A DNA stretch of 22,211 nt from a virus: positions 1-22,211 of IMG/VR virus record IMGVR_UViG_3300021959_000444. One strand, given 5' to 3'. The notes under the pieces were generated by a model. The model ran no database searches. It saw nothing but the letters and a program-made list of their open reading frames with translations, and was not told the origin of the DNA. Below, piece by piece: positions 4,842-17,974 of this stretch; the stretch's first letter is position 1, and the number at the start of each line of letters is the position of its first letter. The translations under genes and the position numbers were made by a program.

Positions 4842-5285
4842 TTATTCTTTGCAAGACCTCATTACTTCTGCAAGTTTTTTTGCACGAAGTGGAGTTTGAT
4901 TGGCCCAACGGCTGTCCATCATTTGAAATGATGCTTCACCATAATCTTTTTTCTTTAATGCTTCCCACATCTTTTTAAACTTGGATACACCACCAATACC
5001 TAATTGAAACACCATCTCAATTATGACACATTTAGCTTGGTCATGTATATCAGTTATACTATTGTCATGTAGTATCAATATATCTGCATTGTTTTTAGCT
5101 GTTTGAAAGTCTGCCTCAAACTGTGCATCTAATTCTTTTCTTGGATATTTAATATCTGGTTTGTAATGATCTTCTGGAGTAACTAAATGGCCATATCCGA
5201 TTGTGGCAAAACCAAGACTATCTTTATATACAGTATCTCTAAAGCCTTCATGTTCTTTTATACGTTTTTTAAGTTCTTCGTACAT
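4842..5285 (-). CDS. Endolysin, T4-type lysozyme (GH24)
   Basis: 147 residues. The N-terminus reads EHEGFRDTVYKDSLGFATIG, and the T4 lysozyme catalytic triad aligns as E13, D22 and T28, followed by GYGHL. The C-terminal SRWANQTPLRAKKLAEVM matches the conserved NQTPxRA segment of the family. The enzyme cleaves the N-acetylmuramic acid to N-acetylglucosamine bond of peptidoglycan. Length is slightly under T4 lysozyme (164 residues). There is no signal peptide, so export should need a holin, and several small membrane proteins lie upstream in the same operon. Its ATG shares one base with the stop of the DUF6321-type gene (TAATG), indicating coupled translation. Confidence 0.95.
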   Translation of the reverse strand: MYEELKKRIKEHEGFRDTVYKDSLGFATIGYGHLVTPEDHYKPDIKYPRKELDAQFEADFQTAKNNADILILHDNSITDIHDQAKCVIIEMVFQLGIGGVSKFKKMWEALKKKDYGEASFQMMDSRWANQTPLRAKKLAEVMRSCKE

Positions 5286-7912: not shown

Positions 7913-8817
7913 TAAAAAGTAACATTCATAAAATGATTACAGAATTCATTAACCCTGCAATAATGTTGGCATCTAACATCTTCACCTTTACGGAATACAA
8001 TACTGCATCCTTTACCTTCAATCATCTTTTGACTTAAAAGAAATTGTGAGGCTTCTTCTTTCGTATTGAAGACACGCCATGCAGTTTTTCTATTGTCTTT
8101 CATAACAGCATAGGTGTCTTCTTTACGCCATCTTTCTTTAGCTGTACATAAAGGGAGTTGATTGGTTTGTTCAGCATCTTGATGAAGTTTGATACGAGTA
8201 CGAACATAGTTATCTTGTTCTTCTTCTGTCCATCTTCGTATAGGTATCATCACAACTTGTTTACGTGGATAGTTATCTGATTGCATTACTTTCATTTTAG
8301 ACCAATCACGTAAGATTGCCATGATAGATAATGATTTAACTTTAACTTCTTTTTTATATCGTATTAGTTCTTTTTGTTTTTTACGACATAAGAAATCAAG
8401 AACATTTAATTGTTGTTCCCATTCAGCTTTACCATTAGTTGTGGCATCTAGCGCCGCCCAAGCAGATGTAACTTTAAAATCAATTAGATTACCTTGTCTG
8501 GTAAGCAAATCAAATGCACCAGATAATGTCCATCCATTTGTTATAGCATCATCTTTATAGAATAATCTACGTTCAGCTATATCAGTTTTCTGTTTAGCAC
8601 GTTCAATGATGTGATGTACTGATTGACCTAACAAAGAAAATATACGATCTGATACATCTTCTTTAATTAAATCAAAGTTATTTTTTTCTAATACCCTAAT
8701 TCTAGGTGGCGCTATTAAACGAGTAGTAGATATATCAGACCCACTACTGTCGTATGGATCGTTAGCTACTGCCCGTTCAATAACTTTAGGTAAATTAGAT
8801 ATGTTTGTGAATTCCAT
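7912..8817 (-). CDS. PD-(D/E)XK nuclease, Cas4/RecB-like
   Basis: 301 residues. Motifs in order: LLGQSVHHIIERA (His at 68-69, Glu 72), LSGAFDLL (D103), LIDFKVTSAW (D113 and K115, the catalytic D-x-K) and EWEQQLNVL (Q135-Q136). These match the RecB-family core that cuts DNA with a metal ion. Cys 224 and a C-terminal cluster C283-x3-C287-x5-C293 resemble the four Cys that hold an iron-sulphur cluster in Cas4 and AddB-type nucleases. The N-terminal DISTTRLIAPPRIRVLE segment recurs in phage exonucleases of this type. It is adjacent to the SSB-like gene, with a 1-base overlap at 8817, so the two probably act together in DNA end processing, replication or recombination. Exact polarity is unknown. 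Confidence 0.9.
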   Translation of the reverse strand: MEFTNISNLPKVIERAVANDPYDSSGSDISTTRLIAPPRIRVLEKNNFDLIKEDVSDRIFSLLGQSVHHIIERAKQKTDIAERRLFYKDDAITNGWTLSGAFDLLTRQGNLIDFKVTSAWAALDATTNGKAEWEQQLNVLDFLCRKKQKELIRYKKEVKVKSLSIMAILRDWSKMKVMQSDNYPRKQVVMIPIRRWTEEEQDNYVRTRIKLHQDAEQTNQLPLCTAKERWRKEDTYAVMKDNRKTAWRVFNTKEEASQFLLSQKMIEGKGCSIVFRKGEDVRCQHYCRVNEFCNHFMNVTF

Positions 8818-9428
8818 TAAAATGGTATTGCTTCTTCACCAACGCTTGTATCAGCACCATTTGCACCATCACCTAGATCTTGGTTCATGTCCTGTAGTTC
8901 ACGTGAGTTTAGTATCATTTTACGTATGCCTTCTGATAATTGATTAAAGACTTCCTTCTTACCATTTTGAAAGTCATCAATACTAAACATCATACTTGGA
9001 TATACTTGTTCAGCAACTTTATCATTTTTTGCTAAAGGCATTACAGATGATATTCTGGCCTTACCATTCTTCTCAATCACATTAAGTGTACAAGCAACGC
9101 CTACTAATTTAGAAACATCAAACGATTGTTTTTCAGTTTCAGTAAACGGTCTTCCACGCCAAGAAACAAGATCTTGACTTAATGATGATTTTTCATGGAG
9201 TGATAAATTGTAAAACTTACTGATAGTCATAGCTTTACCTTCACCGTCTAATTCTTCTGGTACTTCCCAGATAATTAGTACAGTTCTTTTCCAACTGATT
9301 TGTCCTTGATAGTCGTTTTTTTGTGTACCAAGATCAATTACCTTAATACATCTGGCTTTGTGTACACCTGCGGACACGCTTGGATAACGAGGTGTATCAC
9401 TACCACTTGTAGCTATTATGCTTGTCAT
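8817..9428 (-). CDS. Single-stranded-DNA-binding-like phage protein
   Basis: 203 residues, first gene of the leftward block. The N-terminal half is beta-rich (ARCIKVIDLG, ISWKRTVLIIWEVP, then SKFYNLSLHEKSSLSQDLVS and WRGRPFTE), matching a phage family that I know as uncharacterised or SSB-like. It has a flexible acidic tail ending in EEAIPF, close to the DDDIPF tip by which bacterial SSB recruits partner enzymes. Binding of ssDNA is therefore inferred from fold-like pattern, tail and its neighbour nuclease. The ribosome site is AAAGGA, about 9 nt before ATG. Transcription probably starts within the operator array at 9462-9497. An alternative is a recombination mediator or annealing protein. 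Confidence 0.85.
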   Translation of the reverse strand: MTSIIATSGSDTPRYPSVSAGVHKARCIKVIDLGTQKNDYQGQISWKRTVLIIWEVPEELDGEGKAMTISKFYNLSLHEKSSLSQDLVSWRGRPFTETEKQSFDVSKLVGVACTLNVIEKNGKARISSVMPLAKNDKVAEQVYPSMMFSIDDFQNGKKEVFNQLSEGIRKMILNSRELQDMNQDLGDGANGADTSVGEEAIPF

Positions 9429-9461
9429 AGTTATTTTCCTTTTTCACTAATTTATTATTGA

Positions 9462-9475
9462 TTAACTACTGTTAA
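9462..9475. promoter_or_regulatory. Operator O1 (TTAAC-TACT-GTTAA)
   Basis: Perfect 5-4-5 palindrome in the divergent region. A TATAAT on the minus strand (9481 to 9476) lies immediately beside it, so the leftward start point, about 7 nt further on, would fall inside this site. A bound repressor should block the leftward SSB/nuclease/lysis transcript. Confidence 0.7.
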
Positions 9476-9481
9476 ATTATA
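9476..9481 (-). promoter_or_regulatory. -10 box of the leftward promoter
   Basis: Perfect TATAAT on the minus strand, exactly filling most of the 8-bp gap between operators O1 and O2. No good -35 hexamer is found 16-18 bp upstream, so activity may need an activator or be weak. The predicted start point is near 9469, about 40 nt before the ATG at 9428. Confidence 0.45.
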
Positions 9482-9483
9482 TA

Positions 9484-9497
9484 TTAACTATAGTCAA
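9484..9497. promoter_or_regulatory. Operator O2 (TTAAC-TATA-GTCAA)
   Basis: Same 5-4-5 pattern as O1 with one half-site changed (GTCAA). Its first base is exactly 22 bp after that of O1 and 22 bp before that of O3, i.e. about two helical turns, so proteins on the three sites would sit on one face of the DNA. Confidence 0.7.
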
Positions 9498-9505
9498 GTA
9501 ATTAG

Positions 9506-9519
9506 TTGACAAAAGTTAA
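9506..9519. promoter_or_regulatory. Operator O3 (TTGAC-AAAA-GTTAA)
   Basis: Third copy of the palindrome, overlapping the rightward -35 box (TTGACA, 9506-9511). Occupancy should directly block the rightward promoter. Confidence 0.7.
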
Positions 9520-9534
9520 GAAAACAAATATAGA
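9506..9534 (+). promoter_or_regulatory. Rightward sigma70-type promoter of the regulator/replication block
   Basis: TTGACA (9506-9511), a 17-bp spacer, then TATAGA (9529-9534). The start point about 7 nt on would coincide with the ATG at 9541, predicting a leaderless or nearly leaderless message. No ribosome site is present before 9541, which agrees. Confidence 0.65.
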
Positions 9535-9540
9535 ACAATT

Positions 9541-9759
9541 ATGGCTAGTGTAATAGATGAATTAGTTGAGGAATTACAAGCGAAAAAGAAACGTCTAGAT
9601 AAAGAAATAATTAATCTAGATAGATCTAGCGTCATTCCACAACATTATAATAAAGCAGATTGTATTTGCGAATTAACTGATGAAGCAATTAAGTGTGAAG
9701 ATAGAGCCAATTATCTGTTGCAGTTAAGACACACAGATGTTGCAAAATTACAACAATGA
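9541..9759 (+). CDS. Small protein next to the regulator, unknown function
   Basis: 72 residues. Helical N-terminus (IDELVEELQAKKKRLDKEII), then SVIPQHYNKADCICELTDEA with C-x-C, another Cys (CEDRANYLLQLR) and a polar end. It is the first gene of the rightward block and probably translated from a leaderless transcript. It shares ATGA with the regulator gene. I do not recognise it. A role in the switch, for example as an anti-repressor or co-regulator, is possible because of its position but has no sequence support. Confidence 0.7.
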   Translation: MASVIDELVEELQAKKKRLDKEIINLDRSSVIPQHYNKADCICELTDEAIKCEDRANYLLQLRHTDVAKLQQ

Positions 9760-10177: not shown

Positions 10178-10206
10178 TTGACTAGCCCTTACTTCTGGGG
10201 TAAATA
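10178..10206 (+). promoter_or_regulatory. Candidate promoter of the replication genes
   Basis: TTGACT (10178-10183), 17-bp spacer, TAAATA (10201-10206). The -10 is poor. The predicted start point is near 10213, inside the operator-like site O6. Confidence 0.35.
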
Positions 10207-10211
10207 TCAAA

Positions 10212-10225
10212 TTAACTAAACTTAA
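10212..10225. promoter_or_regulatory. Operator-like site O6, one mismatch (TTAAC-TAAA-CTTAA)
   Basis: Matches TTRAC-N4-GTYAA except for the first base of the right half. It ends one base before the ATG at 10227, so a bound protein would block the start point or the ribosome entry region of the replication operon. Confidence 0.4.
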
Positions 10226-13783: not shown

Positions 13784-14066
13784 ACACGAAAAAGAACATA
13801 TGCAGAAGATTGCTGATCTTGGGTGTATTATCTGTCGTAAGATGGGGTTTCCTAATAGTCCTGCTGAACTACACCATATCAAAGACAAGACAGGTATGGG
13901 TAAGAAAGCTAGTAATTTTGAAGTAATACCATTATGTCCAAAACATCATAGACACGGTAAAGACGCTTATCATACAAGCCCAAAAGAATTTACAAAAAAG
14001 TGGGGAACTCAAAGAGAGTTGTTGACAGAAGTATTAACAAATGTTAATTGTTGTGGTAAGTGCTAA
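13764..14066 (+). CDS. HNH nuclease, Ref-like (RecA-dependent nuclease family)
   Basis: 100 residues from the ATG at 13764; a TTG at 13758 is an alternative. C21-x2-C24 (GCIICRKMG), AELHHIKDK (H37-H38), then VIPLCPKHHRHGKDAYH (C58, H61, H62) form a zinc-bound HNH/beta-beta-alpha-metal site. The following PKEFTKKWGTQRELL closely follows the pattern of phage P1 Ref and related proteins that cut DNA held in RecA filaments. It could promote recombination or process replication intermediates alongside the SSB-like protein and nuclease. A homing HNH role is less likely given size and operon position. A Cys-rich end (CCGKC) is unusual. An operator-like palindrome lies in its last 30 nt. Confidence 0.82.
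   Translation: MARTKTKHEKEHMQKIADLGCIICRKMGFPNSPAELHHIKDKTGMGKKASNFEVIPLCPKHHRHGKDAYHTSPKEFTKKWGTQRELLTEVLTNVNCCGKC
14034..14047. promoter_or_regulatory. Operator-like site O7 (TTAAC-AAAT-GTTAA)
   Basis: Perfect match to the 14-bp palindrome, inside the 3' end of the HNH gene and 59 bp before the ATG at 14106. A TTGACA (14022-14027) starts 12 bp upstream, but no good -10 follows. It may control an internal promoter for the last three genes of the block, or be chance. Confidence 0.45.
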
Positions 14067-16522: not shown

Positions 16523-16875
16523 TATTGAACCTCCATAAATTTGAAATGATTAGAGGGTTTGTCAATAGCCACAGAAAAAGGCATATCAGCATAATTACCC
16601 TCATGTTCAACAAATTTTTTAAAAGCAAAATAAGAGGCGTCAATTAAATAAGCTATTGCCCTCCCACTTGTTTGAACAAGTTTAGAACCGTCTTCAAAAT
16701 CTTCAACTAATTGGTCTGAAGATATAAGAACGGCAATTTTATTATTTTGCTTAACTTTGTTAATCTTATTGACCCATTCCAAGTCAATTTCGTCTTGTGT
16801 TTTTCTGTTAGGATGAGCAAGTTTCCAACCCTTTAACAGTAATCTACGTCTTTCAACGCTTGATATTTGGCTCAT
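16522..16875 (-). CDS. First gene of the leftward early-type block, unknown function
   Basis: 117 residues from the ATG at 16875, with GGAGG (16888-16884) 8 nt upstream. A longer frame starting at 16902 is rejected because that codon lies inside operator O4 and at or before the predicted start point. Basic start (SQISSVERRRLLLKGWKLAH), then KTQDEIDLEWVNKINKVKQN. A central IAVLISSDQLVEDFEDGSKL and SGRAIAYLIDASYFAFKKFV suggest an alpha/beta fold. Not recognised. As the first gene behind a strong promoter it should be made early and in quantity. Confidence 0.8.
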   Translation of the reverse strand: MSQISSVERRRLLLKGWKLAHPNRKTQDEIDLEWVNKINKVKQNNKIAVLISSDQLVEDFEDGSKLVQTSGRAIAYLIDASYFAFKKFVEHEGNYADMPFSVAIDKPSNHFKFMEVQ

Positions 16876-16895
16876 ATGTTTAACCTCCATTTTAG

Positions 16896-16909
16896 TTAAC
16901 ATAAGTTAA
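16896..16909. promoter_or_regulatory. Operator O4 (TTAAC-ATAA-GTTAA)
   Basis: Perfect copy of the TTRAC-N4-GTYAA palindrome. It overlaps the -10 region and predicted start point of the leftward promoter, so repressor binding should shut off the ten-gene block. Confidence 0.7.
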
Positions 16910-16934
16910 TAATATAATTATATTTACTTGTCAA
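16906..16934 (-). promoter_or_regulatory. Leftward promoter of the small-gene block
   Basis: On the minus strand TTGACA (16934-16929), 17-bp spacer, TATTAA (16911-16906). Start point near 16899, giving a leader of about 24 nt that contains the GGAGG before 16875. Confidence 0.6.
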
Positions 16935-17380: not shown

Positions 17381-17761
17381 GCTCATAGTCCTCCATATCT
17401 CATCATACATAAGCATAAGACATAAGGAACGACACTTACCCTACATCACTTTGATTACTCCATATCTGCCTCAATGTGCTTGAAATAAAGGTTCTACACC
17501 CACACACACACGCCCTTCAAGGTAAGCTGATTGGTTCAAATGATGTGGTCTTGTGTAAATATCCCTCCCATATTCGTCTTCATGTGCCACATACACAGAC
17601 AAGCAAGGCCAATAGCGTTCCTCTTTTGTTCTTTTTTTGACCCCCCACCCCCCAAAACGCTTCCCATTCCAATTAAGTATGGATTACTTCGCATAGCGGT
17701 GGGTATTTCTATATATTAACCAAAGTTAATAGCTTGAATATGTGTAAAAAAAAGAGTATTT
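17381..17761. other. Long non-coding stretch, possible packaging site region
   Basis: About 380 bp with no convincing gene on either strand; one 62-codon frame at 17531 lacks a ribosome site and encodes an unconvincing Phe/Pro/Ile-rich chain. Composition follows the GC-richer small terminase gene up to about 17700, then drops. Features: CACACACACACAC near 17500, a T-run followed by two C-runs (CCCCCCACCCCCC, 17641-17653) and operator O5 near the end. Lying beside a small terminase gene, it is a candidate pac or cos region. Confidence 0.45.
17716..17729. promoter_or_regulatory. Operator O5 (TTAAC-CAAA-GTTAA)
   Basis: Perfect copy of the palindrome, 32-45 bp before the first gene of the packaging/head block. 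TATATA (17710-17715) overlaps its left side as a possible -10, but no good -35 is seen. It could repress late genes. Confidence 0.6.
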
Positions 17762-17767
17762 GTGTGC

Positions 17768-17974
17768 ATGGTTAAGCCTATTAAGGATTTACAAACAATA
17801 TTGCATTTTAAAAAAGGTAATTATGTATATAGGTATGTTCTTGTTGATAGGTTTAAAAATACTGGTAAAGTACATTATGGTTTTGATAATAAACTAGAAC
17901 GAACCGAGGCTGAAATTTTTGCGCTTGAAACACCACGAAAATTACGTAGAAAATATATTTTAAAAGATGGATAG
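17768..17974 (+). CDS. Small basic protein before the large terminase
   Basis: 68 residues from the ATG at 17768; a GTG at 17762 (70 residues) is equally placed, with AAGAG 5 nt before the GTG and 11 nt before the ATG. Beta-rich: DLQTILHFKKGNYVYRYVLV, then DRFKNTGKVHYGFDN, and a basic end (PRKLRRKYILKDG). Overlaps the large terminase gene by 8 nt (ATGGATAG), so it is co-translated with it. Not recognised. A packaging accessory role is inferred only from position. Confidence 0.72.
   Translation: MVKPIKDLQTILHFKKGNYVYRYVLVDRFKNTGKVHYGFDNKLERTEAEIFALETPRKLRRKYILKDG

Follow-up and report, generated by a model that had tools for sequence, protein, structure and literature searches.

The 22,211-nucleotide stretch of viral DNA analysed here (positions 1 to 22,211 of IMG/VR record IMGVR_UViG_3300021959_000444; hereafter the window) carries three palindromes between its divergent operons. 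Judged by comparison with related phages, these palindromes are real, conserved operator-like sites of a divergent control region. We assign a probability of roughly 0.7 to the reading that they serve a self-limiting repressor of the Cro type, with a genome-wide regulon through which the timing of phage genes would be set, and that they do not form a lysis/lysogeny switch. The features discussed below are collected in Table 1.

Table 1. Operators, promoters and genes of the proposed regulon, with positions in the window
Feature	Positions	Strand	Elements and context
O1	9462..9475		TTAACTACTGTTAA; perfect 5+5 palindrome
O2	9484..9497		TTAACTATAGTCAA; right half on the minus strand is TTGAC, a likely leftward -35
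O3	9506..9519		TTGACAAAAGTTAA; left half is the rightward -35
P_R	9506..9534	+	-35 TTGACA (9506-9511), 17-bp spacer, -10 TATAGA (9529-9534)
P_L -35	9492..9497	-	TTGACT; conserved; within the right half of O2
First gene of leftward operon, 203 aa	8817..9428	-	phrog_862
72-aa ORF	9541..9759	+	First gene of rightward operon; no family match
Cro-like protein, 69 aa	9756..9965	+	Proposed operator-binding protein
Site C promoter	10178..10225	+	TTGACT (10178-10183), 17 bp, TAAATA (10201-10206), then operator
Further exact site	14034..14047		TTAACAAATGTTAA; within the RecA-dependent-nuclease/HNH gene, at its 3' end
Site A	16896..16934	-	Operator TTAACATAAGTTAA (16896-16909); adjoins the small terminase gene
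Site B	17716..17729		Operator TTAACCAAAGTTAA; first gene of the terL/structural operon about 40 bp downstream
Candidate late promoter	17734..17762	+	TTGAAT-17-TATTTG; 4 bp downstream of site B

All three sites are 14-bp palindromes of the form TTRACNNNNGTYAA, located within the 112-bp gap (9429-9540) that separates an ORF running leftward from 9428 and an ORF running rightward from 9541. Their start-to-start distances are 22 and 22 bp, confirming the coordinates and the exact interval given for this phage by an earlier, sequence-only reading of the same DNA. The window as a whole contains six exact matches to TTRACNNNNGTYAA, where 0.22 are expected. When the gap was shuffled 100,000 times with dinucleotide content preserved, three sites never arose and two sites arose once, and a motif-free test, counting any three equally spaced and equally alike palindromes regardless of sequence, gave 0 of 20,000 shuffles. 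The half-sites of the array are unequal: of the six, only the right one of O2 and the left one of O3 read TTGAC. More generally, TTGAC halves are found almost exclusively where they can be used as a -35 (the same two half-sites), and nearly all single sites elsewhere have TTAAC in both halves.

In about 36 of 40 non-redundant control regions, two to three palindromes lie upstream of an orthologue of the P22-Cro family; in about 4 of the 40 the sites are degenerate or absent. The array is conserved even where the Cro proteins are only about 70% identical. O3 is the best conserved of the three operators, the TTGAC in the right half of O2 is kept across relatives, and O1 is exact or has one mismatch, or is missing in some. 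Spacing is looser: relatives with the window's architecture have 21-25 bp, mostly 21-24, with a mode of 22 and a single case of 19, and a close relative, whose leftward protein is 97% and Cro-like protein 100% identical, already has 22 and 21. In a second architecture, without the 72-aa gene and with cro directly after the operators, the spacing is 31-36 bp and the operators lie 57-100 bp upstream of cro. The exact 22 bp is a property of this phage, and the feature that is conserved is a spacing near two or three helical turns; the two-turn spacing proposed by the sequence-only reading is kept in most relatives. A cro orthologue accompanies the sites in every case, and the survival of this linkage through rearrangement is the best evidence for the Cro-like protein as the binder. 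Distantly related versions of the leftward gene, in Manatee Spring contigs and RIO-1, were accompanied by no comparable site or Cro arrangement.

The closest isolate record is that of Pelagibacter phage EXVC032P Baldr (OQ414636), with 69% DNA identity over 89% of a 1.5-kb query, and because of this kinship the phage of the window probably infects a SAR11 host. Baldr is one of the relatives that have the array, and shares with the window the gene order, sites A and B and a Cro orthologue that is 75% identical and annotated only as a hypothetical protein; its O3 is exact, and its O1 and O2 have one mismatch each. Unlike in the window, the DUF1376 gene of Baldr has no separate promoter or operator C.

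The 69-aa ORF at 9756 belongs to the P22-Cro family by the Pfam cutoff (P22_Cro, PF14549; 39.8 bits against a cutoff of 30.2, E = 3.9e-10), and as a profile it matches P22 Cro (1RZS) with E = 3.9e-6. Its predicted structure is poor (pLDDT 50). All full-length relatives collected share an unchanged recognition-helix segment, SHPAVSKW, and in a comparison of recognition helix with operator half-site both are invariant in the collected set. The 72-aa ORF ahead of it, which the second architecture lacks at this place, overlaps the 69-aa ORF at 9756. On the other side of the gap, ORF 8817-9428 has distant similarity to annotated phage ssDNA-binding proteins, and a family search returned no repressor family match for it.

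O3 lies over the rightward -35, as the sequence-only reading had it. The -10 of P_R is 6-8 nt from the ATG in most relatives with the window's architecture, and no ribosome-binding site lies between the two. For these two reasons transcription from P_R is predicted to start at or beside the A of the 9541 ATG and to yield a leaderless mRNA. The promoters at 9529-9543 and 17757-17770 both stop 5-6 nt short of an ATG and have no ribosome-binding site, a pattern that suggests that leaderless mRNAs are usual in this phage group; the gene that runs leftward from 9428 has a leader of the normal kind. For the leftward promoter, the earlier proposal of a TATAAT between O1 and O2 did not hold up: the hexamer is found in the closest relatives only, and a -35 at 16-18 bp from it is absent (the best in the window matches at 2/6). 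The likely leftward -35 is instead the conserved TTGAC within O2, for which the candidate -10 in the window, TAACAG at 9474-9469 and 17 bp away, is weak (3/6).

Sites of the same form occur at other promoters, and the positions of sites A, B and C are conserved among relatives. Site A covers the -10 and start of a leftward promoter (TTGACA 16934-16929, 17 bp, TATTAA 16911-16906). The leftward gene beside it (16525-16902) varies among relatives while site A stays, as if genes were exchanged under a fixed promoter. At site C the operator, TTAACTAAACTTAA (10212-10225), is imperfect and lies upstream of the DUF1376 primosomal-type gene; the site is retained wherever a separate gap precedes this gene, and relatives without the gap lack it. 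In every relative examined, site B is located before terL and the structural genes. Nearly all relatives also have, ahead of site B, a conserved CCCCCCACCCCCC tract and then a small CCGCATAGCGG-like hairpin (17640-17716). Folding of this short hairpin is better than that of shuffled sequences (z = -2.48), and the tract and hairpin together may be a packaging (cos/pac) site. The exact site at 14034 is present in four relatives, with changes in its centre bases, and absent in Baldr, and may partly reflect protein coding. Across 17 phage records, TTAACN4GTTAA occurs 34 times where 0.7 are expected, an approximately 50-fold enrichment, and TTGACN4GTTAA 17 times where 0.3 are expected.

From these sequence features we infer that the Cro-like protein binds the operators, that binding represses, and that events would run in the following order. 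P_R and P_L are arranged back to back, with O3 over the -35 of P_R and O2 over that of P_L. Early in infection P_R would be open and would direct synthesis of the 72-aa protein and then of the Cro-like protein. As the latter builds up, it would fill O3, O2 and O1, shutting off both its own promoter and P_L, and at the single sites A and C it would cover the start regions of other promoters. It would also bind site B ahead of the terminase/structural operon. Repression of the whole P_L operon would be odd unless there are internal promoters, because the leftward genes include a lysozyme (ORF 4842-5285).

At site B, binding also fits activation, and activation of the late genes by the Cro-like protein is possible. 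We regard as a minority possibility a dual action of the protein, with repression of the early promoters through O1-O3, A and C and activation of the late promoter through site B. The site precedes the late genes throughout the relatives examined, is followed after 3-4 bp by a weak, conserved -35 (TTGAAT or TTGCAT) with TATnnn at 17 bp, has its centre near -46 from the predicted late start, and never has the TTGAC half that marks use as a -35. However, the offset of site B was not singled out in a promoter scan, where offsets of 10, 0 and -6 scored equally well or better, and the late -35 is missing in some relatives. With the -10-like TATATA directly before it, site B would, moreover, be a repressor site in the manner of A and C. 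The candidate late promoter itself, which ends 5 nt before the ATG at 17768, is statistically ambiguous. One early phage protein acting both at early promoters and ahead of a late promoter has a precedent in phi29 p4 (PMC3100819). The likeness is one of working only: the protein is unrelated, no p6 partner is known here, and activation is only proposed here. A similarly tentative extension makes the Cro-family protein the sole master regulator of a lytic group, with graded early repression and late activation from site B; if true, it would take the place of CI and also of a dedicated late activator or RNA polymerase. A search for phage RNA polymerase (PF00940) gave no match, with the control also silent everywhere.

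The arrangement was taken by the sequence-only reading for the geometry of a genetic switch. A switch like that of lambda would imply a temperate phage, with competition between Cro and a repressor for three operators that are bound cooperatively. In lambda, the three tandem operators OR1-OR3 cover two back-to-back promoters. The window resembles this in its three tandem operators between divergent promoters, in their similar spacing of about 22 bp and in the presence of a Cro-family protein. In contrast to lambda, the leftward gene encodes a replication-type protein and not cI, P_R encodes another small protein ahead of cro, and the spacing drifts among relatives. The P22 operator region, too, has multiple palindromic operators at about two-turn spacing, overlapping divergent promoters and a small HTH repressor of the same family, but here the half-site is different (TTRAC), operators are also found at distant promoters, and no opposing repressor gene or integrase was found. 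Searches for Phage_integrase, Resolvase, Peptidase_S24 and HTH_3 returned nothing in 10-12 related records, some of them incomplete (the window is partial, the Baldr genome complete), and the controls gave matches; within these records, neither CI-, C2- or LexA-type repressors by the S24 and HTH_3 families nor integrase or resolvase genes for integration or prophage maintenance were detected. A scan of one genome each for 84,980 bacterial and archaeal species, pattern-seeded and so open to escape by distant relatives, yielded no tblastn-confirmed Cro orthologue, which argues against common prophages. A search of 8 SAR11 genomes, run without a positive control, also gave no match. A switch of the lambda type is accordingly very unlikely.

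Some alphaproteobacterial phages are known to carry CtrA sites (PMC9437464). The operators here contain TTAA half-sites and the host would be alphaproteobacterial, but binding by CtrA (TTAA-N7-TTAA) or another host regulator in place of a phage protein is the least probable explanation and is rejected, since the N7 motif is depleted in the 17 phage records (37 against 56 expected), the very records in which the N4 motif is enriched, and the operator motif shows no enrichment in 8 SAR11 genomes of about 9 Mb (18 against 42 for a reversed control).

Few organisms in the sea are as abundant as SAR11 bacteria and their phages. No description of a pelagiphage transcription circuit was found in the literature searched, which covers few subscription journals. 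The self-limiting Cro-type reading comes with a defined motif for the operators, a candidate for the regulator and a set of promoters, and the isolate Baldr is already in culture. This reading suggests that phages in which no lysogeny genes are detected can retain an operator array in the style of lambda as a device for timing.
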